Assembly (NCBI RefSeq): GCF_011682145.1
Contig: NZ_WHJH01000038.1
Span: 1-64,000 of the forward strand
From: Massilia mucilaginosa
Lineage (GTDB): Bacteria > Pseudomonadota > Gammaproteobacteria > Burkholderiales > Burkholderiaceae_D
Length of the DNA stretch: 64,000 nucleotides
Direction: 5' to 3'
Shown here piece after piece: positions 22,765 through 41,946 of the stretch. Within the stretch, counting starts at the first letter, position 1, and every line of letters starts with the position of its first letter. The position numbers were made by a program, and so were the translations under genes. The notes below the pieces were generated by a model. The model had not been told where the DNA came from, ran no database searches, and was given only the letters and a program-made list of their open reading frames with translations.

Positions 22765-22798
22765 GAACGCCTCCTGGTAAAAGCATGAATATACTAAG

Positions 22799-22825
22799 TT
22801 AACGGCATCTTCTATCCATACTTTA
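22799..22825 (-). promoter_or_regulatory. Sigma-28 (FliA) promoter of fliD
   Basis: Reading the minus strand: TAAAGTAT, 11 nt, GCCGTTAA. This matches the FliA consensus TAAAGTTT-N11-GCCGATAA at 13 of 16 positions or better, with exact spacing, about 35 nt upstream of the fliD ATG at 22764. It lies between flaG and fliD and directs transcription of fliD-fliS-fliT and perhaps the downstream fliK-like, FlhB-like and ycgR genes. Confidence 0.85.
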
Positions 22826-22897
22826 GAGGGGTAATCCGGTGCTTGTTCGGTTTATGCCCGGATTGCGCACGATTCAGGCGCTTTTTCGCCAATTCCA

Positions 22898-23293
22898 TCA
22901 GGCAACCTGGCTGATCAGCAAACCCTGGACTTTTTCCAGCGCCTTGCCGATTTCGAGCGCTTCGGCGCTGGGCATCTGGCGGATCACTTCCTTGGTGGTC
23001 TGGTCGATGATCTTGACCACGGTGCGCTTGCTGTCGGTATCGATCGAAAACTCGATATTGCGCGACAGGGCCTGCATCGCCACGTTGATCTGGCCGACCA
23101 CCTTGCTCACTTCGGCCGGGTCCGGCTCGGCCGCCTCTTTGGCGGGGTCGGTCTTGCCGGTCGCGGCCAGCGCCGCCGTCCTGACGCTAGTGGTGCTGGT
23201 GGCCGCGCCGGCGCCGCCAGCGGCCGTGGCGGCCGGGGCAGCCGGACGGGGCAGAGGAGCGCCTGCCGTGTTCTCCAGGGGACGAAGTTCCAT
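22898..23293 (-). CDS. flaG: FlaG family flagellar protein
   Basis: 131-residue protein; FlaG proteins influence filament length and are usually placed between flagellin and fliD, as here. The C-terminal domain is typical: VVGQINVAMQALSRNIEFSI, then DSKRTVVKIIDQTTKEVIRQ and MPSAEALEIGKALEKVQG. The N-terminal 50 residues are Ala/Pro-rich and variable. It follows the flagellin gene at 23365 after a hairpin, and precedes the fliD promoter. Confidence 0.92.
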   Translation of the reverse strand: MELRPLENTAGAPLPRPAAPAATAAGGAGAATSTTSVRTAALAATGKTDPAKEAAEPDPAEVSKVVGQINVAMQALSRNIEFSIDTDSKRTVVKIIDQTTKEVIRQMPSAEALEIGKALEKVQGLLISQVA

Positions 23294-23364: not shown

Positions 23365-24807
23365 TTAGCCGCGCAGCAGGGACAACACCCCGTTTGGCAA
23401 CTGGTTGGCCTGGGCCAGCATGGCCGTGCCTGCCTGTTGGAGAATCTGGCCGCGCGTCAATTTGGCCGTTTCCGACGCGAAATCGGTGTCCTGGATGCGG
23501 CTGCGCGAGGCGGACAGGTTTTCCGAGGTCGATTGCAGGTTGGTGACCGCGGTTTCAAAACGCGACTGCAGGGCGCCGAACGATGCGCGCTGGCTGTTGA
23601 CGTTGGCCAGGGCCGAGTCGAGCACTTTCAGTGCGTCCGATGCACCCTTGGCGGTCGAGACGTCCACAGCGGCCACGGTATTGAGCGTTGCCGCCGTGTT
23701 CAGCGTGACTGCGTTCGAACCGGTGCTGCCGATCGAGAAACCCTTGTCCGAGTTCATCGACACATAACCCATCGAGGTCGAGGTGGTGCCGGTCGCCATT
23801 GGCACCCCGGCTGCCACCGTGCCGGCCGAGTTGATGGCCGAACCGGTAATCGATGCCGATGCACTGTTGTTGGCGAGGGTGATGTTGTTGCCAGCGGCAT
23901 TGGTCAGGATCAGGCCGTCGTTGCTGCTGTTCAGTTTGGCGGTAACGCCGGTTTTCGACGACACATCGTTAAATGCGCTCACCGCCGATGCCAGGCCGGA
24001 GGCATTCAGGGCCGCGCCGACCGTGAAGGTGACGTTGGCGGGAGCGCTGTTGTCGGATGTGACAGCCAGCGAGTACACGCCGGCGGCGGTCAGGCTGATC
24101 GCTTCTTCGGTTTTGGCGTCGGCGGTCACGCCGGTGGTGGCCGAGGCGCCGTTGATGGTGGCGGCCAGCGACTGCGCGGTATCGGTCGCGGTAACGGCGA
24201 TGTTGGTGGTGGCCAGGCCTTGCAGTGCGAACGAGCCGGCGGTGTAGGCAGTATTGGTGGTGGCGGTGGTCGCTGGCGCCGTGGTCGACACTTCGTTATT
24301 GCCGTAGTTATTGGTACGGAAGTTGGCGGTGGTCGCCTGGATGGTCTGGCCGGCATTCGCGCCCACCTGGAAGGTGGCGGTGCCAAAGCTGCCGTCGAGC
24401 AGTTTGAGGCCGTTGAATTCCGAGGTCTGGGAGATACGGTCGGCTTCCGACAACAGCTGGCCAACCTCGGCCTGGATCGCTTTGCGGTCGCCGGCGGAGT
24501 TGGTGGCGTTCGACGATTGCACCGCCAGTTCACGCACACGCTGCAGGATGTTACCGGTCGATTGCAGGGAGCCTTCCGCCGTTTGCAGCATCGACACACC
24601 ATCGTTGGCATTGCGCCGGGCCTGGTCCAGGCCGCGGATCTGCGACGTGAAACGTTCGGAAATGGCCAGGCCAGCCGCGTCATCCTTGGCACTGTTGATA
24701 CGCAAACCGGACGACAGGCGCTGCAGCGACGTCGCCAGCGAGGAGCCCGAAGTGGTCAGGTTGCGTTGTGCGTTGAGGGAGGCGATGTTGGTGTTGATGA
24801 CGCTCAT
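23365..24807 (-). CDS. fliC: Flagellin (copy 1)
   Basis: Filament subunit of 480 residues. The conserved D0/D1 ends are intact ([20 protein letters not shown] at the start; [20 protein letters not shown] and [11 protein letters not shown] at the end). The central exposed domain (about 175-390) is rich in Ser, Thr and Ala, well suited to O-glycosylation. A strong ribosome site (AAGGAG) and a sigma-28 promoter precede it. It is nearly identical in layout and length to the copy at 25201, with a 98-bp stretch (24266-24363) identical to 26102-26199. Confidence 0.98.
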
Positions 24808-24908: not shown

Positions 24909-24935
24909 GTAACGGATTGCGGTCTGGAAAGTTTA
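24909..24935 (-). promoter_or_regulatory. Sigma-28 (FliA) promoter of flagellin copy 1
   Basis: Minus strand: TAAACTTT, 11 nt, TCCGTTAC, about 100 nt upstream of the flagellin start. Spacing is exact for FliA promoters and the boxes resemble those of copy 2 (TAAACTTT-N11-CCCGTTAC) and fliD (TAAAGTAT-N11-GCCGTTAA), which gives a local consensus TAAAnTnT-N11-nCCGTTAm. Confidence 0.8.
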
Positions 24936-25200: not shown

Positions 25201-26643
25201 TTAACCGCGCAGCAGGGACAACACGCCGTTCGGCAGCGAGTTGGCCTGGGCCAGCATCGCGGTACCTGCCTGCTGCAGGATCTGGCCGCGCGTCAGTTTG
25301 GCTGTTTCCGAAGCGAAGTCGGTATCCTGGATCCGGCTGCGCGAAGCAGACAGGTTTTCGGAAGTCGACTGCAGGTTGCTGACTGCGGTTTCGAAGCGCG
25401 ACTGCAGTGCGCCGAAGGAAGCGCGCTGGCTGTTGACGTTGGCCAGGGCCGAGTCCAGCACTTTCAGCGCATCCGAAGCGCCTTTGGCGGTCGAGACATC
25501 GACACCGGACACAGTATTGAGCGTTGCCGCCGTGTTCAACGTGACTGCGTTCGAACCGGTGCTGCCGATCGAGAAACCCTTGTCCGAGTTCATCGCGACA
25601 TAGCCCATCGAGGTCGACGTGGTGCCGGTCGCCATTGGCACACCGGCTGCTACCGTGCCGGCCGCGTTGATGGCCGAACCGGTAACCGATGCCGACGCAC
25701 TGTTGTTGGCGATGGTGATGTTGTTACCGGCCGCGTTGGTCAGGACCAGGCCATCGTTGGTGCTGTTCAGCTTGGCGGTAACGCCGGTTTTCGACGACAC
25801 ATCGTTAAATGCGCTCACTGCCGATGCCAGGCCGGAGGCATTGGTCGCTGCGCCGACCGTGAAGGTGACGTTGGCGGCGGTGCTGTTATCGGACGTCACG
25901 GCCAGCGCGTAGACGCCGCCGGCAGTCAGGCTGATCGCTTCTTCGGTCTTCGCATCGGCGGTCACGCCGGTGGTGGCCGAGGCGCCGTTGATGGTGGCGG
26001 CCAGCGATTGCGCGGTGTCGGTCGCGGTGACGGCGATGTTCTTGGTTGCCAGGCCCTGCAGCGCGAAACTGCCGGCGGTGTAGGCGGTGCTGGTGGTGGC
26101 CGTGGTCGCTGGCGCCGTGGTCGACACTTCGTTATTGCCGTAGTTATTGGTACGGAAGTTGGCGGTGGTCGCCTGGATGGTCTGGCCGGCATTCGCGCCG
26201 ACCTGGAAGGTAGCGGTACCGAAGCTGCCGTCGAGCAGTTTCAAGCCGTTGAATTCCGAGGTCTGGGAGATACGGTCGGCTTCCGACAACAGTTGACCAA
26301 CCTCAGCCTGGATCGCCTTGCGGTCACCGGCGGAGTTCGTTGCATTCGAGGACTGCACAGCCAGTTCACGCACACGCTGCAGAATATTGCCCGTCGATTG
26401 CAGGGAACCCTCAGCCGTTTGCAACATCGACACGCCATCATTGGCATTGCGCTTGGCCTGGTCGAGGCCGCGGATCTGGGACGTGAAGCGTTCCGAAATG
26501 GCCAGGCCGGCGGCATCGTCTTTCGCGCTGTTAATACGCAGGCCGGAAGAGAGGCGCTGCAGCGAGGTCGACAGTGCGGAGGCCGAGGTGCCCAGGTTGC
26601 GTTGTGCATTCAGCGATGCGACGTTGGTGTTAATGACGCTCAT
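25201..26643 (-). CDS. fliC: Flagellin (copy 2)
   Basis: Second 480-residue filament subunit, starting [20 protein letters not shown] and ending [11 protein letters not shown]. It differs from copy 1 by scattered substitutions, mostly near the N-terminus and in the central domain; the flanking D0/D1 domains are practically the same. It has its own sigma-28 promoter (26743-26769), the same leader block and its own terminator, so both copies should be expressed independently. The Ser/Thr-rich middle is a plausible target of the glycosylation operon at 28.8-37.5 kb. Confidence 0.98.
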   Translation of the reverse strand: MSVINTNVASLNAQRNLGTSASALSTSLQRLSSGLRINSAKDDAAGLAISERFTSQIRGLDQAKRNANDGVSMLQTAEGSLQSTGNILQRVRELAVQSSNATNSAGDRKAIQAEVGQLLSEADRISQTSEFNGLKLLDGSFGTATFQVGANAGQTIQATTANFRTNNYGNNEVSTTAPATTATTSTAYTAGSFALQGLATKNIAVTATDTAQSLAATINGASATTGVTADAKTEEAISLTAGGVYALAVTSDNSTAANVTFTVGAATNASGLASAVSAFNDVSSKTGVTAKLNSTNDGLVLTNAAGNNITIANNSASASVTGSAINAAGTVAAGVPMATGTTSTSMGYVAMNSDKGFSIGSTGSNAVTLNTAATLNTVSGVDVSTAKGASDALKVLDSALANVNSQRASFGALQSRFETAVSNLQSTSENLSASRSRIQDTDFASETAKLTRGQILQQAGTAMLAQANSLPNGVLSLLRG

Positions 26644-26742: not shown

Positions 26743-26769
26743 GTAACGGGTTACCAGCCGGAAAGTTTA
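26743..26769 (-). promoter_or_regulatory. Sigma-28 (FliA) promoter of flagellin copy 2
   Basis: Minus strand: TAAACTTT, 11 nt, CCCGTTAC, 100 nt upstream of the ATG at 26643, the same distance and box sequence as the copy-1 promoter. Confidence 0.8.
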
Positions 26770-28753: not shown

Positions 28754-28782
28754 GAAATGTTTCGAGTCAGAGCTCTGACCCC
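28754..28782 (+). repeat. 29-bp direct repeat, right of macro-domain gene
   Basis: Second copy of the 28178-28206 repeat. It overlaps the 3' end of the acetyltransferase gene (28767-29426): the repeat supplies the stop codon and the last residues (GSEL), so this gene's C-terminus has been rewritten by the insertion of the repeat. Confidence 0.7.
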
Positions 28783-29426
28783 CGGCGGAAGAAATCGTCG
28801 ATCAGGGGCCGCTTCGCCGTTTTGATGGTCAGCTCGCCCGCCGTGCCGGCGAACACCATGCAGTTGCCCGGCGTGTCGCGGTTGATCACGCCCGTGCCTT
28901 GCGATACCGCCGTGTTGGCGCCGATCCGGCAGCGGCCGATGATGGCGCTGTTGGGATACAGAATCACGCCTGCGCCGAGCACCGGCGCCACGCCGTGGTT
29001 CTTGCCGACCGTGGAATTTTGGTACAGCACCAGATAGTTGCCGTACGTTGCCTTGGCCAGCACGATGCCGACCGAGTGCCCGATAAAGAACACCTCCGGC
29101 ATCTCGATCTCGTAAAACAGGTCGATGCCGTTGAGCGCCTTGTTGAGCAGGAACAGCCGCGTCGCCACGCCCAGCGCTTCCTCGCTGCGCTCTTCACGCC
29201 AGATCGTATTCGACAAAAAGTACAGGTACTGGCAGTACTGGCTCGAATTGAGATGGTTGAATTGCCCCTGCGGCCACATCTTCACCCGGTCGATGCAGGC
29301 TTGCAGCCGCGCCATGGCCGTGTCCCAATGGCGCGCGATGATACCTTGCAGCACGGCCGGCTCCATGCCGGGGAAAAACGTGCCGACCTGCTGGCAGGTG
29401 TAGGCGATCAGGTGTTCGTGGGCCAT
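28767..29426 (-). CDS. Serine acetyltransferase-like hexapeptide acyltransferase
   Basis: 219 residues. The C-terminal half is a left-handed beta-helix of hexapeptide repeats (IGHSVGIVLAKATYGNYLVL, VLGAGVILYPNSAIIGRCRI, GANTAVSQGTGVI), as in acetyltransferases that use acetyl-CoA. The N-terminal half is helical. It ends the glycan operon, 7 nt after the GNAT gene, and so probably adds an acetyl group to a sugar amine or hydroxyl. The last four residues and the stop codon come from a repeat element, which suggests that the natural C-terminus has been lost. Confidence 0.8.
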   Translation of the reverse strand: MAHEHLIAYTCQQVGTFFPGMEPAVLQGIIARHWDTAMARLQACIDRVKMWPQGQFNHLNSSQYCQYLYFLSNTIWREERSEEALGVATRLFLLNKALNGIDLFYEIEMPEVFFIGHSVGIVLAKATYGNYLVLYQNSTVGKNHGVAPVLGAGVILYPNSAIIGRCRIGANTAVSQGTGVINRDTPGNCMVFAGTAGELTIKTAKRPLIDDFFRRGSEL

Positions 29427-29433
29427 GCCGCGC

Positions 29434-30066
29434 CTACTCCGGTGCCTGGTAGCGCATGTAGACCAGCGCCGGCGCGTCCTCGCCCGCCGCCGGGTCTTCG
29501 ACCCAGGTCACCTGGCCATCGGCGCTGCTGCTGGCCAGCGGCACGCGCTTGACTTCGCTAAAGCCCGCCTTCTGGTAAAACGCCAGCGCCGGGTTGTCCG
29601 AGCGCACCCGCACCCAGGCGTCAGGCAGCCCCAGGCCGGCCCGCGCCCAGTGCAGCAGCGCTTGCAGGGCGGCCGTCATCAGACCCTTGCGGCAGTCGCC
29701 GCCGCGCACGATGGCGTCCGCTTCCACGTAGCCCTGGTCCCAGTCGATGAAGCCGAGCCCCACGTGCCCGACCGAGCGGCCGTCGAGGGTGTCGACCATG
29801 AACAGGATCTTGCCCGGATCGCGCGCAACCGCCGTGGCCAGCCAGTTGGCGGTGCGCGTTTCGTGCGAGTCGAATTCGGTCAGGAACGATGTGACGAAGC
29901 GGTTGCGCCATTCGCTGAGCAGGCTCGCGTCGTTCAGCTTGATGTGGGCGCTGTTTGTTGCGATCGGACGCAGCAGCGCTTCGACCGGCTGCCCCACGGG
30001 AATGATCAGGTCGGCCCCGGCGCCGGCCGCCTGCTTGTACGCGGCAAACAGGGCTTGCCCGCTCAT
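29434..30066 (-). CDS. GNAT-family N-acetyltransferase of the glycan operon
   Basis: 210 residues from MSGQALFAAYKQAAGAGADL; the start ATG at 30066 overlaps the aminotransferase stop (ATGA). The GNAT fold is recognisable: VGHVGLGFIDWDQGYVEADA, then GGDCRKGLMTAALQALLHWA with the acetyl-CoA loop, and DNPALAFYQKAGF near the end. Coupled to the aminotransferase, it probably acetylates the amino sugar made by that enzyme, as PseH does in pseudaminic acid synthesis, though the overall sequence is not close to PseH. Confidence 0.82.
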   Translation of the reverse strand: MSGQALFAAYKQAAGAGADLIIPVGQPVEALLRPIATNSAHIKLNDASLLSEWRNRFVTSFLTEFDSHETRTANWLATAVARDPGKILFMVDTLDGRSVGHVGLGFIDWDQGYVEADAIVRGGDCRKGLMTAALQALLHWARAGLGLPDAWVRVRSDNPALAFYQKAGFSEVKRVPLASSSADGQVTWVEDPAAGEDAPALVYMRYQAPE

Positions 30067-31193
30067 GCTGCTTTGCCCGCGAAATACAGGCCGATCTGGC
30101 GGCACACTTCGTCGACCAGGGCCAGGTCCATGCGCGAGTGCAGCGGCAAGGACAGGATTTCATTGCCGACCCGGTCGGTCACGCTCAGGTCGCCCGCGCG
30201 GCAGTTTTTCCACAGCGAGAACCAGTGCCCCGGCTGCCAGTGGATGCCGGTGTCGACCCCGTTCTCCTTCAAGAATTTGCGCAGGTCGTCGCGGTCGTCG
30301 GCCGGTACGCGGATGTAGTACAGAAACGGGTTGACGTCGGCAAAGTCGGTCAGCGGCGTGCGCACTTGTTCGAGGCCGGCCAGCAGGGCGTTGTACTTGA
30401 TGCAGGCGTCGCGCCGGCTGCTGGCAATCAGTTCCAGCTTGGACAGCTGGGCCAGCCCGATGGCGGCGTGCATATTGAGCATGTGGTAGCGGTAGCCGAC
30501 CCGTTCGACATCGAAGGTCCAGGCGCGCTGGTTCTGGTACATGACCGAGGCCGGCTGCTGCATGCCGAGCAGGCGCAGTTCGTGCACCATGGCCAGTTCT
30601 TCCTTGGTCTTGACGACGATCGTGCCGCCGTCGAGGCAGGTGATGGTTTTGACCGGGTCGTGGCTGAACACGCAGATGTCGGAAAAGCTGCCGACCGGCT
30701 TGCCCTTGTACCGGGAGCCGAAGGAGTGCGCGGCGTCGTGGATCACGCGCAGCTTGTGCGTGGCGGCAAATGCGGCAATCTCGTCATGATCGCAGAGGAT
30801 GCAATCGTAATCCATGACGATGATGGCTTTGGTCTTGGACGTGACGAGGGTGGCGGCCTGTGTCATGTCGATCGCCAGGGTGTCGTCGAGGCAGTCGCAG
30901 AAGACGATCTCGGCACCCACCCACGAAATGGCCTGGAAATCGGCCGAGCAGTTGAAGGAGGACACGATCACTTCGTCGCCCGGACCGACGCCGGCGATCA
31001 GCAGGGCCACGTGCAGCCCGGCGGTGCCGGTACTGAGGGCGGCGACGTGGCGCTCTTCGGTGCCGAGGATTTCCTTGACCTTGTTTTCGAATCCAGACAC
31101 ATAGCTGCCCATGCCGAGCCAGCCCATTTCGAGCGATTCACGGCTGGCGTCGATTTCTTCTTTTTCGATCAGCGGCTTAAAAACGGGAATCAT
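30063..31193 (-). CDS. DegT/DnrJ/EryC1-family sugar aminotransferase
   Basis: PLP-dependent enzyme of 376 residues that aminates a keto-sugar nucleotide. The active-site lysine is Lys182 in SHDPVKTITCLDGG, and Asp153 in IHDAAHSFGSRY contacts the PLP nitrogen. The substrate-side segment (GIHWQPGHWFSLWKN) is normal for the family. It lies between the epimerase and the GNAT gene with short spacing (24 nt; ATGA). It should produce an amino-deoxyhexose on the CDP-sugar made by the upstream genes; the amination position cannot be read from sequence. Confidence 0.9.
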   Translation of the reverse strand: MIPVFKPLIEKEEIDASRESLEMGWLGMGSYVSGFENKVKEILGTEERHVAALSTGTAGLHVALLIAGVGPGDEVIVSSFNCSADFQAISWVGAEIVFCDCLDDTLAIDMTQAATLVTSKTKAIIVMDYDCILCDHDEIAAFAATHKLRVIHDAAHSFGSRYKGKPVGSFSDICVFSHDPVKTITCLDGGTIVVKTKEELAMVHELRLLGMQQPASVMYQNQRAWTFDVERVGYRYHMLNMHAAIGLAQLSKLELIASSRRDACIKYNALLAGLEQVRTPLTDFADVNPFLYYIRVPADDRDDLRKFLKENGVDTGIHWQPGHWFSLWKNCRAGDLSVTDRVGNEILSLPLHSRMDLALVDEVCRQIGLYFAGKAA

Positions 31194-31216
31194 GGCGTTC
31201 CTTCACAAGGAGGTTG

Positions 31217-31765
31217 TCAGGTAAGGGCGGCCAACAGCGGCCATGCCCGGTCATTGTCGGAGATCGTGCGCGCCGTCCCCGCCGCACAGGCCGGCCAGGG
31301 AATCGCCAAGGCCGCATCATCCCAGCGCAGGCCGCGCGCCGAGGCGGGGCGGAAAGGCGTACTCATCTGATACAGGACTTCGGTGCCGGGGTGCAGGCTC
31401 TGGAAGCCATGCGCCATGCCGGCGGGAATGTACAACTGGCGCCGGTTCTCGGCCGACAGTTCGGTGTGGAAGGCCTTGCCAAACGTGGCCGAGTCCGGCC
31501 GCAGGTCGACGATGGCGTCGAATATCGCGCCGCGCGTGACCCGCACCAGCTTGATTTCTTGATCCGGCGCAATCTGAAAGTGCAAGCCGCGCACGGTGCC
31601 GGCCTGCGGGTTCCACGACACGCTTTGCTGCACGAAGCGGCCGACCAGGCCGTGCCGCGCGAACTCATCCTCGCAGACGGTGCGGGCGAACAGGCCGCGC
31701 GCGTCTTCGACCGGGTCGATGTCGATGAGAAAAGCGCCGGCCAGCGGTGTCGGGGTGAATCGCAT
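31217..31765 (-). CDS. dTDP-4-dehydrorhamnose 3,5-epimerase-like enzyme (RmlC/RfbC family)
   Basis: 182 residues from MRFTPTPLAGAFLIDIDPVE. The cupin catalytic residues are visible: His62 in GTVRGLHFQ and His119 in AGMAHGFQSL. The start overlaps the methyltransferase stop by four bases (ATGA). The enzyme epimerises a 4-keto-6-deoxy sugar nucleotide, here presumably CDP-linked. An apparent 654-residue open frame through this point is not one gene; the upstream part is a shadow of the methyltransferase. Confidence 0.9.
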   Translation of the reverse strand: MRFTPTPLAGAFLIDIDPVEDARGLFARTVCEDEFARHGLVGRFVQQSVSWNPQAGTVRGLHFQIAPDQEIKLVRVTRGAIFDAIVDLRPDSATFGKAFHTELSAENRRQLYIPAGMAHGFQSLHPGTEVLYQMSTPFRPASARGLRWDDAALAIPWPACAAGTARTISDNDRAWPLLAALT

Positions 31766-33006
31766 CAGGCCACCACGTGGATGTGCGGGTTGGCCAGCAG
31801 GAATTGCCCGCCCCAGCCGCGGATGCCGGCCATCTGGCTCATCAATTCTTCCTTGATGTTCCACGGCAGGATCAAGAGGTAGTCGGGACGCGTTTCGAAC
31901 ACGGCGTCCGGCGCGCGCACCGGAATGCGGCTGCCGGGCAGGAGCCGGCCTTGTTTGGCGGGGTTGCTGTCGACCACGTAATCGATGATGTCGGCGCCGA
32001 TGCCGCAGTAGTTGAGCAGGGTGTTGCCCTTGGCGGCGGCGCCGTAGGCGGCGATGCGCTTGCCCTGGTCCTTGGCGTCGATCAGGAAGCGTTGCAGCGC
32101 GCGTTTGGTGGCGCGCATGCGCTCGCCAAAGCCGGTGTAGGTGTCCAGGCGCATCAGGCCGGCTGCCTGTTCCTGTTCCAGGCACGCGGCGACCTGCGCC
32201 GTGGTGGCATGCGCCGCCGCTTGCAGGCAGGCATAGACGCGCAGGCTGCCGCCGTGGGTCGCCAGGTGCTCGATGTCGAACACGCGCAGGCCGGCGCGCG
32301 CGAAGATGGGCATCAAGGCCGTCAGGGACAGGTAGGAATAATGTTCGTGGTAAATCGTGTCGAACTGCTGGTCGGCGATCAGGCGCAGCAGGTGCGGGAA
32401 TTCCAGGGTGACCACAGCCTGCGGTTTCATCACGGCCGGCATGGCGCCGACGAAATCGTGCAAGTCGGGCACGTGGGCCAGCACGTTGTTGCCCAGTAAC
32501 AGGTCGACCTGTTCGCCCTGCGCCGCCAGCGCGCTGGCGCTGGCGCGGTGGAAGAACAGTTCGCGCGTGTCGACGCCGCGTGCGCGCGCCGCCGCCGCCG
32601 TGTTGCCGCTCGGTTCGATGCCGATTGCCGGAATGCCCGCTTGCACGAAGTATTGCAGCAGATAGCCGTCGTTGCTGGCGATTTCCATCACGCGGCTGGT
32701 CCCGTCCAGGCCAAGGCGCGCCGTCATCTGGTCCACGTAGGCGCGCGCGTGCGCCAGCCAGCTGCTCGAAAATGAGGAGAAATAGACGTAGTTGGCGTGG
32801 AAATGCAGCTCGGCGCGGGTGGCGTCGGCCAGTTGCACCAGCCAGCATCCGGCGCACACCATGGCGTGCAGCGGATAGAACATCTCGCCGTCGGCCGCCT
32901 TGTCCGGCGCGACAAAGGCATTCGACACGGGTGAGAGGCCCAGGTCGGCAAAGCTGTGGTGCAGCGCTGCGCCGCAGGCGCGGCATGGGCGGGCGGGCGT
33001 GCTCAT
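31765..33006 (-). CDS. Class I SAM-dependent sugar C-methyltransferase
   Basis: 413 residues from MSTPARPCRACG. The N-terminal zinc-binding domain is shown by CxxC pairs (Cys8/11 and Cys51/54), followed by the SAM-binding motif VMEIASNDGYLL (107-118) and a C-terminal domain with GAAAKGNTLLNYCGIG. This three-part layout is that of NDP-hexose C-methyltransferases such as the TylCIII type, which methylate a keto-sugar carbon. The ATG at 33006 overlaps the dehydratase stop (33003). It is followed by the epimerase. Confidence 0.87.
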   Translation of the reverse strand: MSTPARPCRACGAALHHSFADLGLSPVSNAFVAPDKAADGEMFYPLHAMVCAGCWLVQLADATRAELHFHANYVYFSSFSSSWLAHARAYVDQMTARLGLDGTSRVMEIASNDGYLLQYFVQAGIPAIGIEPSGNTAAAARARGVDTRELFFHRASASALAAQGEQVDLLLGNNVLAHVPDLHDFVGAMPAVMKPQAVVTLEFPHLLRLIADQQFDTIYHEHYSYLSLTALMPIFARAGLRVFDIEHLATHGGSLRVYACLQAAAHATTAQVAACLEQEQAAGLMRLDTYTGFGERMRATKRALQRFLIDAKDQGKRIAAYGAAAKGNTLLNYCGIGADIIDYVVDSNPAKQGRLLPGSRIPVRAPDAVFETRPDYLLILPWNIKEELMSQMAGIRGWGGQFLLANPHIHVVA

Positions 33007-34070
33007 GCGCAGAAATGCTCCAGTTGCTGTTCGGTAAAGGCGCGCATGTCGGCGGACGCGTGCGCCGCCGCGTACCAGGCGGCCGTCCGGGCGATGCCGG
33101 TCGCCAGCGGCCAGCGCACCTGCCAGCCGAGCTCGTGGCGCGCCTTGCTCGAATCGAGGTAGAGCAGGGCGGCTTCCTTGGCGGCATGCTGTTCGCCGTC
33201 GAGGCGCCATGCCAGCTGCGGCCAGTGGCTTTGCAAGCCGGTCAGCAAGCTTGCGACCGACAGGTTGTCGGCGGCGTCGGGGCCGAAGTTGTAGGGGCCG
33301 GCGCAGGAGGCGTCGCCAGAGAGCAGGCGCGCGGCCAGCAGCAGGTAGCCGTGCAGCGGTTCGAGCACGTGCTGCCAGGGCCGGGTGGCGTTGGGACTTC
33401 TGACCGGCAGCGCGCTGCCTTGCCGCATGGCGCGCACGGCGTCGGGAATCAGGCGGTCCGCGCTCCAGTCGCCGCCGCCGATCACGTTGCCGGCGCGCGC
33501 GGTGGCGATCAGCGGGCCGCCGCCGGCAAAGAAGCTGCTGCGGTAGCTGTGCGCCACCAGTTCGGCGCCGGCCTTGCTGGCGCTGTACGGGTCATGCCCG
33601 CCGAGGCGGTCGTTTTCGCGGTAGCCCCAGGGCCAGTGCTGGTTGTCGTAGCATTTGTCGGTGGTCACCACCAGCGCGGCGCGCGCGCTCGGGCAGGCGC
33701 GCAGCGCTTCGAGCACGTGCACGGTGCCCATCACGTTGGTCGACCAGGTCGTTACCGGATCGGCGTAGCTGTGCCGCACCAGCGCCTGGGCCGCCAGGTG
33801 CAGCACCAGTTCGGGCGCGGCCTCGACCATGGCGGCGCTCAGGGCGGCCTGGTCGCGCACGTCGCCGATGTGGTGGCGCTCCAACGTGTCGCCCACGCGC
33901 GCCAGCTCGAACATGGTCGGCGTACCCGATGGCGCCAGCGCGTAGCCGGTCACGCGCGCGCCCAGCCGCGCCAGAAACAGGCACAGCCAGGCGCCCTTGA
34001 AGCCGGTGTGGCCGGTGACGAACACGCGCCGCCCGTGAAAGGCGTGGGTGAGCGCGTCCATGCCGCTCAT
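33003..34070 (-). CDS. rfbG: CDP-glucose 4,6-dehydratase
   Basis: 355-residue short-chain dehydrogenase-type enzyme, converting CDP-glucose to CDP-4-keto-6-deoxyglucose. NAD-binding loop GHTGFKG at 20-26, and the RfbG signatures VVTTDKCYDNQHWPWGYREN and DPYSASKAG are conserved (the latter carries the YxxxK pair). The start at 34070 overlaps the rfbF stop by four bases. It forms the classical RfbF-RfbG pair, but no RfbH-type E1 dehydrase follows, so the product should stay a 6-deoxy rather than a 3,6-dideoxy sugar. Confidence 0.95.
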   Translation of the reverse strand: MSGMDALTHAFHGRRVFVTGHTGFKGAWLCLFLARLGARVTGYALAPSGTPTMFELARVGDTLERHHIGDVRDQAALSAAMVEAAPELVLHLAAQALVRHSYADPVTTWSTNVMGTVHVLEALRACPSARAALVVTTDKCYDNQHWPWGYRENDRLGGHDPYSASKAGAELVAHSYRSSFFAGGGPLIATARAGNVIGGGDWSADRLIPDAVRAMRQGSALPVRSPNATRPWQHVLEPLHGYLLLAARLLSGDASCAGPYNFGPDAADNLSVASLLTGLQSHWPQLAWRLDGEQHAAKEAALLYLDSSKARHELGWQVRWPLATGIARTAAWYAAAHASADMRAFTEQQLEHFCA

Positions 34071-34840
34071 GGCCACAGCTTCCATGGCGCCGTGCCGGAT
34101 TGCCACATGTCTTCCAGCAGGTTCTTTTCGCGCAGGGTGTCCATCGGTTGCCAGAAACCGGCGTGTTCGTAGGCCATCAGCTGCTGTTGCGCGGCCAGCG
34201 CCTGCATCGGTTCGACTTCCCAGCTGCAACCGTCGCCGTCGATCAGGTCGATCACATCGGGTTGCAGCACGAAGAAGCCGCCGTTGATCCAGCCGCCGTC
34301 GCCCTGCGGTTTTTCCATGAAGGCGGTGACGGCGTCGCCCTGGCGTACCAGCGCGCCGTAGCGCCCGGGCGGCTGCACCGCCGCCACCGTGGCCAGGCGG
34401 CCGTGGGCGCGGTGAAAGGCGATTTCGGCCGCGATGTCGATGTCGGCCACGCCGTCGCCGTAGGTGAAGCAGAATGGTTTGCCCGGTTCCAGGTATTCGC
34501 GTACCCGCTTCAGGCGTCCGCCGGTGAGGGTGTCGGCGCCGGTGTCGACCAGGGTCACGCGCCACGGTTCGGCGTGCCGTTCGTGCACTTCCATCCGGTT
34601 GTTCCGCATGTCGAAGGTGACGTCCGACATGTGCAGGAAGTAGTTGGAAAAGAATTCCTTGATCAGGTAACCCTTGTAGCCGACGCAGATGATGAATTCG
34701 TTCACGCCGTGGTGCGAGAACACTTTCATGATGTGCCAGAGCATGGGTTTGCCGCCGATTTCGATCATCGGTTTCGGCTTCAGGTGGCTTTCTTCCAGAA
34801 TTCGCGTGCCGAGCCCGCCTGCCAGGATGACCGCTTTCAT
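34067..34840 (-). CDS. rfbF: Glucose-1-phosphate cytidylyltransferase
   Basis: 257-residue nucleotidyltransferase making CDP-glucose from glucose 1-phosphate and CTP. It has the nucleotide loop GGLGTR (8-13), KPKPMIEIGGKPMLWHIMK (21-39), and YGDGVADID with the metal-binding Asp, then EKPQGDGGWINGGFFVL and FWQPMDTLREKNLLEDMW, all as in RfbF. The stop overlaps the rfbG start and its ATG overlaps the glycosyltransferase stop by four bases. It is the committed step of the operon. Confidence 0.96.
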   Translation of the reverse strand: MKAVILAGGLGTRILEESHLKPKPMIEIGGKPMLWHIMKVFSHHGVNEFIICVGYKGYLIKEFFSNYFLHMSDVTFDMRNNRMEVHERHAEPWRVTLVDTGADTLTGGRLKRVREYLEPGKPFCFTYGDGVADIDIAAEIAFHRAHGRLATVAAVQPPGRYGALVRQGDAVTAFMEKPQGDGGWINGGFFVLQPDVIDLIDGDGCSWEVEPMQALAAQQQLMAYEHAGFWQPMDTLREKNLLEDMWQSGTAPWKLWP

Positions 34841-37539
34841 GCTGGCGCTCCTTCAGCGCTGTCGCACCAACGCTGCCACATGCCGCGGTAGGCTTCTTCC
34901 AGATGGTGCGTGAAGCGCGCCATGTCCATCAGCGGACTGGCGCGGGTGCGTTCGCGCAGGCCTTCGCGCAGGCGGCGCAGGCGCGCCGGGTCGCGCGCCA
35001 GGTCGACCGCAATGCGCACGTAAGCCGCTTCGTCTTCGCCGATCAGTTCGTCCAGGCCGCCGTTGTGCAGAATCGTCACGCCCAGGCGCGAGATGAAATT
35101 GCTGCCGGCCAGGGTAACGAAAGGCACGCCCATCCACAGGGTGTCGAAGCTGGTGGTGCCGCCGTTGCACGGGAACGGGTCGAGCGCGATGTCGATGCTG
35201 TTGTACAGCACGAACTGGTTCTTGCGCTCGTTGGCGATCAGGATCAGGCGCGCCGGGTCGATGCCGAGGCGCGCGAAACGCGCTTGCACGCCCTCGCGCA
35301 TGCCGGGGTTGTCCAGCCCCAGGATTTCCAGCATCAAACGCGACGCGGGCACCTGCTCGAGGATTGCGGCCCACAGCACGATGGCCGGGTCGCTCACCTT
35401 GGCGTAATTGTTGAAGCAGCCGAAGGTGAGGTAGCCGTTGTCGTCGCTCGGCGGATGGTCGATCACGGCCGGGCTGTTGGCATGCGCGGCGTAGCAGCAA
35501 AACACTTCCGGCAGGCGCCACAGGGTTTCCACGTTGACGTGCTCGCTCTGGCCGGGCGGCTCGGCCCAGGCATCGGTCAGGCGGTAATCCATGCTGGACA
35601 GGCCGGTGGTGGACGGGTAGCCGATGTAGGTCAGCTGCACCGGCGCCGGTTTGCGGGCAAACGCGAGCAGGCGATTGCCCGCGGTGTGGCCGGCCAGGTC
35701 GACCAGGATGTCGATGCCGTCGGCGTGGATGCGTTCGGCCAGTTGCTGGTCGGACATGCTGCGGCACGGGATCCAGTGGTCGGCATCGGCGCGGATGCGC
35801 GCCGTGAAGTCGTCGTTGACGACGTGGCTGTAGTAGCAGAACACTTCGACCTGCGCCTTGTCGTGGCGCGCCAGGATCGGTTCGATGAAAAACGCCACCG
35901 CGTGGCGCCGGAAGTCGGGCGAGACGTAGCCGATTTTCAGGCGCTTGCCAGGGTCACGTCCCGGCGCATGGGTAAAGCGCTCGGCCGCCAGGCCTGGTTC
36001 GAACTGGGCGGCGAAGCGCAGGTGGAGCTGGAACAATTGTTCCTGGCTGATGCCGGCCGCGTACTGCATCGACAGCAGCAGGTTGTTGTGGGCCGCCGCG
36101 TAGTCGGGGGCGATGGCGATGGCGCGCTCGTACATCTGGCGCGAGGCGTCGGGTTTGCCCTGGTCTTTCAATGCGCTGCCCAGATTGTTGTAGGCTTCGG
36201 CGAAACCCTCGCGCAAGCCGATCGCGTGCTCGAAGGCGGCCACCGCTTCGTCGAAGCGGCCCAGTTCCTTGAAGGCCACGCCGAGGTTGTTCCAGGCGTC
36301 GGCGAACGCGGGTTTGCGCGCGATGGCTTGCTGGAACGAGGCGATGGCCTCGCCCACGCGGTTCATGTTGGCGAACGCCACGCCCAGGTTGAAGTGGGCG
36401 GCGGCGCTGTCGGGCCACATGGCCAGGGTCTTTTCGCACCAGCCCAGCGCCTGCACGTGGCGTTGCAGGTCGGCGTTGGTCAGGGCCAGCATGGCGTACG
36501 GGTCGGCGAATTCCGGTTTCAGGTACACCGCGTTCTCGAAGCAGACCAGCGCTTCTTCCTGGCGGAAGTCGGCCTTGTAGGCGATACCCAGGTTGCAGTA
36601 GGCTTCGGCGTAGTCGGGCCGCACGGTCACGGCGTGCTCGAAGCATTCGATGGCGTCCCCGATGCTGCGCTGGTCGAGCAGGGCGCCGCCGAGATTGTTG
36701 AGCGCTTCGGCGAAGTCGGGCGCCAGCGCCAGCGCGGCCTGGTAGGCGGCGATCGCGTCCTCGGGCCGCCCCAGTTCGCGCAGCGCGATGCCCATGTTGT
36801 TGTAGGCCTGGGCAAAGCCGGGATGGAGCGCCAGCGCGCGCTGGTAGCAGGCCAGCGCCTGCTCCAGCGCACCCTGTTGCTGGCGCGTCACACCGAGGTT
36901 GTAGTGGGCCGTCGCCAGGTCCGGTTGCAGGGCCAGCGCGGCCTCGAAATGCGCGGCCGACAAGGCCCATTGTTCCTGCTGCTGGTAGAGCGAGCCCAGG
37001 TTGTTGTGCACTTCGGCAAAGCCGGGCTGGAGTTCGAGCGCCTTGACGTAGCAGACCCGGGCTTCGTCCAGGTTGCCCATCAGTTTCAGGGTGTCGCCCA
37101 GATTGCTGTAGGCCTCGGCATGCTCGGGCCGCAGCGCCAGCACCGCCAGGTAGCTGCCGAGGGCATTGGGCAACTGGCCGCCGTCGCGCAGGGCGTGGCC
37201 GAGTTGCAGGTGGGCGTCAATGTTGTCCGGCAGCAGTTTCAGCAGGCGCTCGTAGCTGGCCTGCAGTTCGGGCAGCATGTCCAGGGCGCGGCAGCTTTGG
37301 TCGAGCGCGAAGTAATAGGCCGGGCGGCCCGGCTCCTTGTCGATCGCGCGCCCGAGGGCGTCGATGGCCTCGGCGTGGCGTCCGCTTTGCTGGTAAAGCA
37401 GGCCGAGCAGGTGCAGGGCCTCGGCCTTGTTGTCGAGTTTGCGGTACAGCGCTTCCGCCTGCGCCAGCCGTCCCGCCCGGTGATGCTCCATGGCGATATC
37501 GAGAGGGGAGGGCGGGGCGTAGGAAGCGGTTTTTTTCAT
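34837..37539 (-). CDS. TPR/SPINDLY-type O-linked glycosyltransferase
   Basis: 900-residue soluble protein related to eukaryotic O-GlcNAc transferase. Residues about 10-510 are tandem TPR repeats with the AYNNLGVALKELGRFDEAV pattern. The C-terminal catalytic half (about 535-895) has the conserved GYVSPDFRRHAVAFF (His near 545), DLAGHTAGNRLLAF, YIGYPSTTG, and NERKNQFVLYNSIDIALDPF followed by CNGGTTSFDTLWMGVP. It lies at the head of the nucleotide-sugar operon, with rfbF starting within its stop codon. A homologous arrangement glycosylates surface proteins or flagellin in other bacteria; here the flagellins 8 kb away are the best candidate substrates. Confidence 0.9.
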   Translation of the reverse strand: MKKTASYAPPSPLDIAMEHHRAGRLAQAEALYRKLDNKAEALHLLGLLYQQSGRHAEAIDALGRAIDKEPGRPAYYFALDQSCRALDMLPELQASYERLLKLLPDNIDAHLQLGHALRDGGQLPNALGSYLAVLALRPEHAEAYSNLGDTLKLMGNLDEARVCYVKALELQPGFAEVHNNLGSLYQQQEQWALSAAHFEAALALQPDLATAHYNLGVTRQQQGALEQALACYQRALALHPGFAQAYNNMGIALRELGRPEDAIAAYQAALALAPDFAEALNNLGGALLDQRSIGDAIECFEHAVTVRPDYAEAYCNLGIAYKADFRQEEALVCFENAVYLKPEFADPYAMLALTNADLQRHVQALGWCEKTLAMWPDSAAAHFNLGVAFANMNRVGEAIASFQQAIARKPAFADAWNNLGVAFKELGRFDEAVAAFEHAIGLREGFAEAYNNLGSALKDQGKPDASRQMYERAIAIAPDYAAAHNNLLLSMQYAAGISQEQLFQLHLRFAAQFEPGLAAERFTHAPGRDPGKRLKIGYVSPDFRRHAVAFFIEPILARHDKAQVEVFCYYSHVVNDDFTARIRADADHWIPCRSMSDQQLAERIHADGIDILVDLAGHTAGNRLLAFARKPAPVQLTYIGYPSTTGLSSMDYRLTDAWAEPPGQSEHVNVETLWRLPEVFCCYAAHANSPAVIDHPPSDDNGYLTFGCFNNYAKVSDPAIVLWAAILEQVPASRLMLEILGLDNPGMREGVQARFARLGIDPARLILIANERKNQFVLYNSIDIALDPFPCNGGTTSFDTLWMGVPFVTLAGSNFISRLGVTILHNGGLDELIGEDEAAYVRIAVDLARDPARLRRLREGLRERTRASPLMDMARFTHHLEEAYRGMWQRWCDSAEGAPA

Positions 37540-37582: not shown

Positions 37583-39181
<1,599 letters not shown>

Positions 39182-39318
39182 GGTGGAGCGGTGCCTCAGT
39201 CAGGTTTGGCCTTTGATGTGCCAATGATAAGCGAGTTTGTTTCCTGCCATCTCAGGAAAAGAGGCGGGTAAAGCATCTTACTCTAGAGCATTAACTTGGC
39301 GAACAGCATTGGAAAAAC

Positions 39319-39966
39319 TTATTCGATCAACTGGTTTTTGATCGCATAGTGCGTCAATTCGGCACTGTTCTTCAGTTTCATCTTGACAAGCAGGCGCGAG
39401 CGGTATTCGCTGATGGTCTTCACCGACAGCGACAATTCCTTGGCGATCGCGCCGACCGTCTTGCCCGAGGCGATCATGGTCAGGGTCTGGTATTCGCGGT
39501 CCGACAGGGTGTCGTGCAGGGGCGTGTCGTGGTTCTCGCCGACCGCGCTGGCCAGTTCCTGGGCCAGCGCCGCGCTGACGTACTTTTGCCCGGCGGCGAC
39601 CTGGCGAATGGCGGTGACCAGTTCGCGCGGGGCGCTCTGCTTGGTCAGGTAGCCGGCCGCGCCGGCCTTGAGCGAGCGGATCGCGTACTGGTCTTCGCGG
39701 TGCATCGACAGCATCAGCACGGCCAGCTCGGGATGCTCCTTCTTGACCAGCTTGAGCACCTCGATGCCGCTGCGGTCGGGCAGGGAGATGTCGAGCAGCA
39801 TGACGTGGCACTTGGCCTTGCGCACATGCTTGATCGCGTCGACCCCGTCTTCGGCCTCGCCGGCGACGATGATGTCGGGCGACTCTGCCAGGATTTGTTT
39901 CAATCCTTCGCGCACGATCGCATGATCGTCGGCGATGAACACCCGGATGATGGCTTTGTCGGTCAT
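39319..39966 (-). CDS. NarL/FixJ-family response regulator
   Basis: 215 residues: receiver domain with acceptor Asp59 (MLLDISLPDRSG) and acidic pair DD at 13-14, and a LuxR-type DNA-binding domain at about 148-210 (LSDREYQTLTMIASGKTVGA, then AKELSLSVKTISEYRSRLLV). The ATG overlaps the stop of the sensor kinase by four bases (39963), so the two form a pair. Its targets are unknown; the cyclase and glycan genes downstream on the same strand are the nearest candidates. Confidence 0.93.
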   Translation of the reverse strand: MTDKAIIRVFIADDHAIVREGLKQILAESPDIIVAGEAEDGVDAIKHVRKAKCHVMLLDISLPDRSGIEVLKLVKKEHPELAVLMLSMHREDQYAIRSLKAGAAGYLTKQSAPRELVTAIRQVAAGQKYVSAALAQELASAVGENHDTPLHDTLSDREYQTLTMIASGKTVGAIAKELSLSVKTISEYRSRLLVKMKLKNSAELTHYAIKNQLIE

Positions 39967-41135
39967 GGTGCTTCTTGTTCGCTTACGTGGTCAAGGTCGG
40001 TATCGCCCGCTGCCGCTGCGGCGGCGTCGGCGCTCTGATCCGCCATTATCGTCGCTTTAGCCGAACTGAGCCGGATTTTGATGGTCACCACCGTGCCGCC
40101 GCCGGGGGCGTGCGCCAGGGTCATTGTGCCGCCCAGGGCCTGGGCCCGTTCGCTCATGCCGCGCAGGCCGAACGATTGCGGCTTGTGGCGGTCGGCCTGG
40201 GCGATGCCGGCGCCGTTGTCGGCGATCGTCAATACAATGTGCTGGCGCAGCAATTGCAGGCGCACCCCGACCCGGCTGGCGTGCGCGTGCTTGGCGATAT
40301 TCGTCAGCGCTTCCTGGAAAATCCGGAACAGCGCGGTCGCGTGGTCCAGGTGCAGGTCGATCTCCTTGTCGGTGCAGGCAAAGCTGCAGGCGATGCCGTT
40401 CTGCTTCTCGAATTCCTTGACCTGCCATTCGAGCGCCGCGACGATGCCGAAGTCGAGCATCGAGGGGCGCAGGTCGAGCGAAATGCGGTGCACCGCGTCG
40501 ATGGTGCGGTCCACCAGCGAGTCGACATAGGCGGCCCGTTCGGCCAGCTGCGGCTGGTCGGGCGGCAGGCGCTGGGTCAGCATCATCAGGGCCATCTTGA
40601 TGGCGGTCAGGTTGCCGCCCAGGTCGTCGTGGATTTCGCGCGCGATGCGGGTGCGTTCCTGCTCCTTGACGTGCTCCATGTGCGCCGCCAGTTCGGCCAG
40701 GCGGGCGCGCGAGCGCGTCACTTCCAGCTGTTCGAGCTTGCTGGCGGTGATGTTGGTCATCAAGCCTTCCCAGTGCACGCCGCCCGGATGCTCGGGCATG
40801 GCGCGCGGGGTCGAGCGCAGGTTGATCCATTTCTGGTCCTTGTATTCGTGGATCCAGACCCGCCCTTCCCAGTTCCAGCCCGACAGGCTGGCGGCCGAGG
40901 CATGCATGGCGTCTAGGTAGCTCTTGCGGTCTTCCGGCACGATCAGGTCGATGAAGCGCTGCGGCTCGGCCTGCAGTTCGGCGGCGGACAGGCCGAGCAG
41001 GGCGGCGCAGCCGTCGCTGACGTAGGGAAAAGCCACGCGCCCGCCCGCATGCAGCTCGAACTGGTATACCAGTGCCGGGGTGTTGCTGACGAACGCTTTC
41101 ATGGCATGGGCGATGGTGGGTGGGACGGGACTCAT
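39963..41135 (-). CDS. PAS-containing NarL-type sensor histidine kinase
   Basis: 390 residues from MSPVPPTIAHAMKAFVSNTP (an earlier ATG at 41240 would add residues that overlap the divergent gene, so it is disfavoured). An N-terminal PAS fold (about 15-135; FPYVSDGCAALLGLSAAELQ; WEGRVWIHEYKDQKWINLRS) is followed by a HisKA_3 dimerisation domain with EIHDDLGGNLTAIKMALMML (His near 169) and an HATPase domain with ADNGAGI and GLRGMSERAQALGG. It has no transmembrane segment, so it senses a cytoplasmic signal. Confidence 0.9.
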   Translation of the reverse strand: MSPVPPTIAHAMKAFVSNTPALVYQFELHAGGRVAFPYVSDGCAALLGLSAAELQAEPQRFIDLIVPEDRKSYLDAMHASAASLSGWNWEGRVWIHEYKDQKWINLRSTPRAMPEHPGGVHWEGLMTNITASKLEQLEVTRSRARLAELAAHMEHVKEQERTRIAREIHDDLGGNLTAIKMALMMLTQRLPPDQPQLAERAAYVDSLVDRTIDAVHRISLDLRPSMLDFGIVAALEWQVKEFEKQNGIACSFACTDKEIDLHLDHATALFRIFQEALTNIAKHAHASRVGVRLQLLRQHIVLTIADNGAGIAQADRHKPQSFGLRGMSERAQALGGTMTLAHAPGGGTVVTIKIRLSSAKATIMADQSADAAAAAAGDTDLDHVSEQEAP

Positions 41136-41238
41136 CTGGACTCGGCACAGGAAACAATGCCTGGAATCATACGGGAAAATGGCCGGGGCCGGCAGCATGC
41201 GCGTGCGCGGGCGCATCGGGCTTCGGTACAATAGGCCC

Positions 41239-41946
41239 ATGAAAAAGACCCTGTCCGCCCTGATGCTGTGCCTGTCCGTCGCGCTGTGCCATGCGGCCGA
41301 TCCGCGTTATACGGTGGTGACGGTCGATCCGGCGCGCCAGGACCTGCGCCTGTTCCTCAACGACGAGGCCGGCCAGCCCTTCAAGGGCTTCGCCCGCCTG
41401 CAGGAATGGCTGCAGGGGCGCAAGCAGCGCCTGGTGTTCGCGGTCAACGCCGGCATGTACCATCCCGGTTTCGCCCCGGTGGGCCTGCATGTGGAAAACG
41501 GCAGGGAGCTGGCGCCGCTCAACCTGGACGAGGGCAGGGGCAATTTTTTCATGAAGCCGAACGGCGTGTTCGTGCTGGGCAAGGGCGGAGCGGCGGTGGT
41601 CGAGTCCTCGGCGTATCCGTCGCACGCGGCCAAGGCCGTGGAGGTGCGCCTGGCCACCCAGTCCGGTCCGATGCTGGTGATCGACGGCCAGCTGCATCCG
41701 CGCTTCGACCCCGACTCGCCGTCGCGCTACGTGCGCAACGGCGTCGGCGTGGCCGATGGCAAGGCGATTTTTGTGATCAGCAACGTGCCGGTCACCTTCC
41801 ACGAATTCGCCACCTACTTCCGCGATACCTTGCATTGCAAGAATGCACTCTATCTGGACGGCTCGATCTCGAGCCTGTTTTCGACCGCACTCGGGCGCGC
41901 CGATGCCGCCGCGCCGCTGGGGCCGATGCTCGGCGTGGTGGAGTAA
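41239..41946 (+). CDS. Periplasmic phosphodiester glycosidase family protein (NAGPA-like)
   Basis: 235 residues; signal peptide MKKTLSALMLCLSVALCHAA, then a domain of the NAGPA/DUF2233 phosphodiester glycosidase family: AVNAGMYHPGFAPVGLHVEN, GNFFMKPNGVFVL, TQSGPMLVIDGQLHP and NALYLDGSISSLF. The ATG at 41239 is followed directly by the signal sequence. The enzyme class removes GlcNAc-like phosphodiesters or acts on cell-wall polymers. It is divergent from the sensor kinase, with 103 nt between starts. Confidence 0.85.
   Translation: MKKTLSALMLCLSVALCHAADPRYTVVTVDPARQDLRLFLNDEAGQPFKGFARLQEWLQGRKQRLVFAVNAGMYHPGFAPVGLHVENGRELAPLNLDEGRGNFFMKPNGVFVLGKGGAAVVESSAYPSHAAKAVEVRLATQSGPMLVIDGQLHPRFDPDSPSRYVRNGVGVADGKAIFVISNVPVTFHEFATYFRDTLHCKNALYLDGSISSLFSTALGRADAAAPLGPMLGVVE

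Follow-up and report, generated by a model that had tools for sequence, protein, structure and literature searches.

Which surface structure is served by a deoxysugar pathway encoded beside two flagellin genes is the question raised by eight minus-strand genes of Massilia mucilaginosa (28767-37539), which combine a SPINDLY-type glycosyltransferase of family GT41 with enzymes for a CDP-linked sugar. The genes lie in the window analysed here, a 64,000-nt stretch on a 67-kb contig of a genome of 7.70 Mb in 416 contigs, and domain annotation covered the window up to 41.3 kb. An earlier note on this DNA had proposed a flagellin glycosylation system, and the comparative linkage described below supports that reading. 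Judged by its genes and their surroundings, the cassette is probably a flagellin glycosylation island, and its product is predicted to be a CDP-linked, C-methylated, acylated 4-amino-6-deoxyhexose.

All eight reading frames are open, and the families assigned to them were borne out by Pfam and NCBIfam (Glyco_transf_41 with tetratricopeptide repeats (TPRs), NTP_transferase, dehydratase, Methyltransf_13/14, dTDP_sugar_isom, DegT, GNAT and Hexapep). The operon opens with a 900-residue GT41 glycosyltransferase (34837..37539), whose catalytic domain scores 202.5 bits against a curated Pfam cut-off of 25 and is joined to a TPR arm. It is followed by rfbF, a glucose-1-phosphate cytidylyltransferase gene (34067..34840; TIGR02623, 461.8 bits, cut-off 300.25), rfbG, a CDP-glucose 4,6-dehydratase gene (33003..34070; TIGR02622, 468.1 bits, cut-off 278.45), a sugar C-methyltransferase gene of the TylC3/TcaB9 kind (31765..33006; Methyltransf_14, 211.8 bits, and Methyltransf_13, 72.1 bits) and the gene of an RmlC-like sugar 3/5-epimerase (31217..31765; dTDP_sugar_isom, 194.2 bits). 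Two genes of a variable module, here termed type A, come next, encoding a DegT/DnrJ/EryC1/StrS aminotransferase (30063..31193; PF01041, 288.3 bits) and a GNAT acyltransferase (29434..30066; Acetyltransf_3, 43.9 bits), and the conserved last gene of the cassette encodes a CysE-like hexapeptide acyltransferase (28767..29426), assigned from a structure model and Foldseek. The description of the junctions as mostly ATGA overlaps held narrowly: four of the seven are 4-base ATGA overlaps (glycosyltransferase/rfbF, rfbF/rfbG, rfbG/methyltransferase and aminotransferase/GNAT), but the remaining three consist of one 1-base overlap and gaps of 23 and 7 bases. No flippase, polymerase, membrane transport gene or second glycosyltransferase was found by Pfam among the eight operon proteins.

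The presumed acceptors are two flagellins (FliC) encoded on the same strand, copy 1 at 23365..24807 (Flagellin_N 153.7 and Flagellin_C 92.0 bits) and copy 2 at 25201..26643, an open reading frame of which 457 of 480 residues are identical to copy 1. A distance of 8-11 kb had been given for them, which applies from the glycosyltransferase gene, but the flagellins lie only 2.1 kb from the 3' end of the operon; their centres, described as rich in Ser and Thr, are mildly so, with a fraction of 0.29 compared with 0.20-0.21 in the ends. The window places a glycosyltransferase and sugar-nucleotide genes at a flagellin locus, the content of a glycosylation island.

The same linkage recurs across relatives. 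A match to the glycosyltransferase was present in 168 of 294 genomes of the family, and the six close orthologues (87-92% identical), from relatives that include Massilia rubra, M. aquatica, M. frigida and M. atriviolacea, all carry the same island. Flagellin follows in five of the six, and the sixth (G181) is truncated by the end of its contig. Among 17 genomes of the genus, 7 hold the close orthologue. To avoid selecting by the glycosyltransferase, the terminal hexapeptide gene was also used as a query with a threshold of E 1e-30, giving matches in 22 of the 294 genomes of the family and in 10 of 399 from the order, with the genome of the window in both and 31 different genomes in total. These were split at 40% identity into 24 genomes at or above and seven below. 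The rfbF-rfbG-methyltransferase-epimerase core was present in 23 of the 24, the exception (G350) being a 5.8-kb contig, and a GT41 match lay in the stretch read in 21 (all but G239, G339 and G350). Flagellin was nearby in 18; in G181, G385, G461 and G350 it was unseen on short contigs or at contig ends. None of the seven weaker homologues was accompanied by the full core or by flagellin. Linkage to flagellin is thus kept across relatives, and a position beside O-antigen genes in most of them, which the earlier note had set against its own proposal, was not found, with a polysaccharide locus in one of the 24 genomes.

Querying the species collection with the methyltransferase returned 14 loci, four from Massilia, eight from Cupriavidus, one from 'Ralstonia sp.' and one from an actinobacterial metagenome-assembled genome; some of these genomes (e.g. 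those of L053-L056) already contributed to the earlier counts, so that the counts overlap. Flagellin was present at 11 of these, two (L055 and L065) are limited by their contigs and carry GT41 with the cassette, and the metagenome-assembled genome shows another context. In Cupriavidus the island occupies the other side of fliC-flaG-fliD, downstream of fliD, and the GT41 enzyme is only 36-38% identical to that of the window. The linkage has therefore either outlasted a rearrangement or been established anew by an independent insertion. As a background, 40 further family genomes were taken down the E-value list of the glycosyltransferase search, excluding those already fetched and the very short contigs G013 and G091; they are ranked by likeness to the window enzyme, hence no random draw, and some of their stretches are short. 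Flagellin was present in 16 of the 40 stretches as first read. Once one locus (G119, L142) had been read further, flagellin lay near all six GT41 loci that bear the core, compared with 11 of 34 that lack it. Of seven other GT41 stretches with an incomplete cassette (L044, L045 and L048-L052), one (L052) contained flagellin.

The enzymes of the cassette describe a coherent sugar pathway. Both RfbF and RfbG are assigned at equivalog level, and RfbG retains an intact fingerprint, with TDK at 137 and YxxxK at 162, both of which are included in the CDP-glucose dehydratase fingerprint given in the available part of PMC8987622; the route to CDP-4-keto-6-deoxyglucose is therefore represented. Only a single CDP-glucose dehydratase over the cut-off exists in the whole genome. 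A nonulosonate, the donor used in the FlmG pathway, was considered and rejected, as no NeuB (PF03102) is present in the genome, and no MptE-like/Maf domain was found in the genome. The assembly therefore shows neither a competing origin for the sugar nor a NeuB-type nonulosonate pathway. A 3,6-dideoxyhexose made through RfbH was likewise rejected, since in a search of the cluster the aminotransferase reached only 99.6 with the RfbH model, far short of its cut-off of 423.

The best solved match of the methyltransferase is the D-mycarose 3-C-methyltransferase (PDB 4rv9, E 6e-81), and it matches ten full-length solved sequences of the TylC3/TcaB9 type over its full length with 240-276 bits. It contains the zinc-binding N-terminal domain with four Cys, the S-adenosylmethionine domain, the C-terminal domain and a YHEH motif at 219 that is shared in the alignment. 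Because the best solved relatives are named 3-C-methyltransferases, C3 is likelier than C5 and the methyl branch is probably at C3. The enzymes of this type from antibiotic pathways use dTDP sugars, whereas the operon would supply a CDP sugar. In the epimerase His62 and Tyr132 are present, which we take to be the catalytic residues, and in the aminotransferase a candidate pyridoxal phosphate Lys (K182) is in place. The AlphaFold model of the hexapeptide enzyme has a predicted local distance difference test score (pLDDT) of 88.8, and the top Foldseek matches were serine acetyltransferases with TMq up to 0.70.

The transferase itself resembles enzymes of protein O-glycosylation. Within its structure model, helices of TPR rhythm extend to about residue 492 and are followed by a GT-B-like domain; the best match of the model was SPINDLY (E 5.4e-41), with a predicted TM-score (pTM) of 0.54 and parts of the catalytic half poorly predicted. 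The closest solved relatives are Arabidopsis SPINDLY and Thermobaculum OGT. The enzyme shares with the OGT/SPINDLY family the fold, the TPR arm and a catalytic domain that aligns to SPINDLY over 410 residues (E 1.1e-83), and its segments FRRH, FNNYAK and NGGTTSFD align with those of OGT and SPINDLY containing the His, Lys and Asp that are presumably catalytic in OGT. The His preceding the TT pair in OGT is Gly in the window enzyme, and likewise Gly in SPINDLY. The predicted donor differs, being a CDP sugar here as opposed to UDP-GlcNAc or GDP-fucose. The enzyme is encoded by the only GT41 gene found in the genome. In relatives the same cassette is accompanied by one to three or more GT41 modules. 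Additionally, at L039, L041, L046 and L047, open reading frames of 1549-2090 residues with two or three GT41 matches adjoin flagellin and the same sugar core, and it is possible that these provide one module per sugar of a chain.

Taken together, a pathway can be proposed in which RfbF would make CDP-glucose and RfbG would convert it to CDP-4-keto-6-deoxyglucose. The C-methyltransferase would then add a methyl branch beside the ketone, probably at C3, the RmlC-like enzyme would epimerise at C5, or at C3 before methylation, the aminotransferase would turn the 4-keto group into an amine, and the GNAT and hexapeptide enzymes would acylate the sugar once or twice. A single sugar would then be moved from CDP to Ser or Thr of flagellin by the soluble TPR-GT41 enzyme. 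As the operon encodes only one glycosyltransferase, the glycan is more likely to be one sugar than a chain. By analogy with the precedent of FlmG, transfer is suggested to take place in the cytoplasm before export, with the TPR arm of the enzyme holding flagellin during the reaction.

Several observations weigh against this proposal. The epimerase falls narrowly below the RmlC model cut-off (154.2 against 155.75) and the hexapeptide gene below the Pfam cut-off (20.6 against 27). Three consensus patterns revealed no flagellar-type promoter upstream of the operon. None of the GT41 enzymes considered has a documented CDP donor, and the nearest solved relative binds GDP or GDP-fucose. The core also occurs apart from flagellin: G239 is a true counter-example, with the core in a polysaccharide locus that lacks GT41 and flagellin and has NeuB, GT2 enzymes, an ABC transporter and a cytidylyltransferase as neighbours; G213 carries the core with neither flagellin nor a polysaccharide locus in 53.8 kb of a 76.9-kb contig, and its GT41 gene lies on the opposite strand at a distance of about 7 kb; and G118 (L048) carries the core with GT41 and no flagellin in 55 kb. 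These three are all the core loci lacking flagellin that were met in all searches, and they mean that the sugar pathway is not confined to flagellin loci.

The foremost alternative is that GT41 first places GlcNAc or another UDP or GDP sugar on flagellin and that a transferase encoded elsewhere adds the CDP sugar on top. The solved GT41 enzymes carry UDP-GlcNAc or GDP/GDP-fucose according to their PDB titles, and GlcNAc derivatives are suggested for the enterobacterial GT41 islands in the available part of PMC4875605, which allows wider specificity. Nevertheless, the operon contains one glycosyltransferase and its GT41 is the only one found in the genome, and such a two-step route is considered unlikely. 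Somewhat less probable again is that the enzyme modifies cytoplasmic or other exported proteins besides or instead of flagellin. Eukaryotic GT41 enzymes modify many cytoplasmic proteins, and 23 of the 40 background neighbourhoods were without flagellin, some of them on short contigs, but the gene is adjacent to fliC in five of the six close relatives, with G181 cut by a contig end, and in other genera. That the cassette makes a sugar of O-antigen or capsule and sits in the flagellar cluster incidentally is improbable: CDP-deoxysugars are classic O-antigen components, the cassette of G239 is surrounded by genes for NeuB, GT2 enzymes and an ABC transporter, and no flagellin is seen at the cores of G213 and G118, but flagellin is nearby in 18 of the 24 cassette genomes as opposed to a polysaccharide locus in one, the single transferase is of the soluble protein-O-glycosylation type, and no membrane transport or polymerase gene is among the eight.

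For a flagellin glycosylation island, the final form of the sugar appears to be open to change. The aminotransferase and GNAT pair is absent from M. aquatica (G159), M. atriviolacea (G111), G100 and G128, in which the slot holds an FkbM methyltransferase and an NAD-dependent epimerase/reductase. When the DNA of the window was compared with that of M. aquatica in 200-base bins, identity was 86-98% from 34800 to 31400 and 76-92% in the TPR half of the glycosyltransferase gene, the bins from 31200 to 29600 were unalignable, and identity returned to 81-94% from 29400 to 28400. Content thus varies between close relatives, with the exchange between about 31219 and 29400, and the pair is an exchangeable module. 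Across 33 loci the slot was occupied by an aminotransferase and GNAT (type A, 8), FkbM and a reductase (type B, 14), a second hexapeptide enzyme and a reductase (type C, 6), another reductase (type D, 2) or others (type E, 3). M. rubra is of type A and M. aquatica of type B. On a quick maximum-likelihood tree of RfbF, RfbG and the methyltransferase from these loci, the five labels need 12 changes, against a minimum possible of 4 and a mean of 17.1 for shuffled labels. As the labels are more clustered than when shuffled, the modules have therefore been inherited as well as exchanged. The window groups with the type-B M. aquatica, its nearest core relative (core 95% identical), with a Shimodaira-Hasegawa-like approximate likelihood-ratio test (SH-aLRT) support of 93. 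In G275 the aminotransferase is 79% identical to that of the window while RfbG and the methyltransferase are 52% and 51% identical, which points to transfer of the module. The amination and acetylation of the predicted sugar, which the earlier note had taken as part of the pathway, are not fixed and belong to a swappable module. Relatives with other module pairs would combine the same transferase core and similar flagellins with differently finished sugars. Calculated residue increments per site would be 159.09 for the C-methyl amino sugar of type A, 201.10 when it bears one acetyl group and 243.11 when it bears two, and for type B 160.07, 174.09 when O-methylated and 216.10 when O-methylated and acetylated; acyl groups other than acetyl would change these values.

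Differences that follow the module were also seen in neighbouring genes. Among seven Massilia loci, 14 fixed differences in the glycosyltransferase separate type A (5 loci) from type B (2 loci), more than for any other two-against-five split (next 6). Twelve of them lie in TPR residues 341-456 (36172-36519), which adjoin the catalytic domain and begin at a poorly predicted, irregular TPR, and only two in the catalytic part; the clustering P of 8e-9 for this region is no fair test, the region having been picked after the sites were seen. Because of this post hoc choice, and because the same residues fail to follow type in the distant loci G100, G128 and G195, no code linking module and transferase residues is claimed. 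The hexapeptide gene has 14 fixed A/B sites, all in the first 87 columns, where the gene borders on the exchanged module; recombination would leave a tract of this kind. For flagellin, 7 fixed sites followed module type in six loci and 0 when all copies were included, the M. atriviolacea gene being cut by a run of N. It is conceivable, although short of an even chance, that GT41 accepts C-methyl-branched sugars activated with CDP, whatever group they bear at C4, so that exchange of two genes re-coats the flagellin. The alternatives behind a nearly unchanged transferase would then be, equally tentatively, an amine with an acyl group, a hydroxyl with an O-methyl group, or others. Phages that bind the flagellum, or predators, may perhaps exert the pressure behind such re-coating.

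The left part of the window is taken up by flagellar genes (fliR, fliO, fliM, fliK, fliJ, an ATPase gene, fliH, fliG, fliF, fliT, fliS, fliD, flaG and fliC). A run from fliR to fliF is followed by an FlhB-like fragment, a second FliK-like gene, FliT, FliS, FliD, FlaG and the two flagellins, all on the minus strand, with FlaG and FliD at 20755..23293 (PF03646 and PF07195/PF02465). The C-terminal FlhB fragment (18329-18691) and the second FliK-like gene (18684-19916) lie beside FliT/FliS. Among close relatives the flagellin copies vary, with two to four similar tandem genes (L036, L038 and the window). A near-identical box, TAAACTTTCC...CCGTTAC, is located upstream of both flagellins (24909-24935 and 26743-26769, minus strand), with a one-mismatch version before fliD (22799-22825), and is a candidate for the flagellar sigma promoter of the clade. 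Between the flagellins and the operon are a plus-strand open reading frame with no Pfam match and a macro-domain gene (28221-28688); for the latter, M. aquatica has a 94% match, M. rubra matches over a piece of just 31 residues, and the stretches from the remaining four close relatives contain none. The other side of the operon is flanked by genes for a GGDEF protein, a response regulator and a PAS histidine kinase (37583..41240, minus strand), the first and last identified by Pfam and the regulator named from its sequence. This flank, whole or in part, recurs in Massilia relatives and in other genera and looks like a fixed insertion place. The set or part of it was seen at L046, L067-L070, L072, L052, L108, L110, L113 and L114, including GT41 loci that lack the CDP core. 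At L071 and L090 the same CDP cassette belongs to a polysaccharide locus, whose other genes include those for NeuB, GT2 enzymes, an ABC transporter and a fusion of cytidylyltransferase and aldo/keto reductase.

Islands of this kind have precedents. In the available part of PMC4875605 (De Maayer and Cowan 2016), flagellin islands of Enterobacteriaceae are described in which sugar and glycosyltransferase genes are inserted at the fliC locus, with GT41 enzymes of the SPINDLY type in fourteen of forty-two island types and genes for CDP-4-keto-6-deoxyglucose in one type (4 strains); FkbM and S-adenosylmethionine-dependent methyltransferases, DegT aminotransferases and acetyltransferases vary, and some strains differ only in modifying enzymes. 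The location differs from that found here, being the fliC-fliA interval there and the interval between the kinase-regulator-GGDEF set and fliC in the window, and the Massilia island joins a conserved rfbF-rfbG-C-methyltransferase-epimerase core to a single variable slot that precedes the hexapeptide gene; neither 'C-methyltransferase' nor 'epimerase' occurs in the main text of PMC4875605. Caulobacter FlmG, compared by the description in the accessible part of PMC7591256, is a soluble flagellin O-glycosyltransferase with N-terminal TPRs and a C-terminal GT-B domain, as predicted for the enzyme of the window, and the TPR part of FlmG interacts with flagellins. However, FlmG has 596 residues compared with 900 and needs a pseudaminic acid donor, whereas the genome of the window lacks NeuB. 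A flagellin island of Clostridium butyricum, as far as presented in the portion of PMC13317340 at hand, shares rfbF and rfbG, but its predicted product is CDP-paratose, made through RfbH and RfbS, whereas no RfbH is present in the Massilia cluster and a C-methyl branch and 4-amino group are predicted instead.

Because of the precedents in these portions of PMC4875605 and PMC13317340, the kind of island is already known. The combination had been called unusual, which does not hold for GT41 and CDP-sugar flagellin islands as such, both already predicted there, but stands for the C-methyl-branched version, which was not met in the literature searched. In the open-licence literature searched, no flagellin island of Massilia or Cupriavidus and no C-methylated CDP sugar on flagellin was found. 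As far as these searches show, a C-methyl-branched CDP sugar together with GT41 at flagellin in Massilia and Cupriavidus is new. Within the same limits, so are a conserved core accompanied by a single variable slot and module exchange that took place recently among close relatives. If the proposal is true, a CDP-sugar donor would be added to the OGT/SPINDLY family, and a set of flagellin islands of betaproteobacteria would be defined in which the core is conserved and a single finishing module can be exchanged. Matched natural pairs, such as the strain of the window and M. aquatica, would then be available for probing the donor selectivity of the glycosyltransferase.

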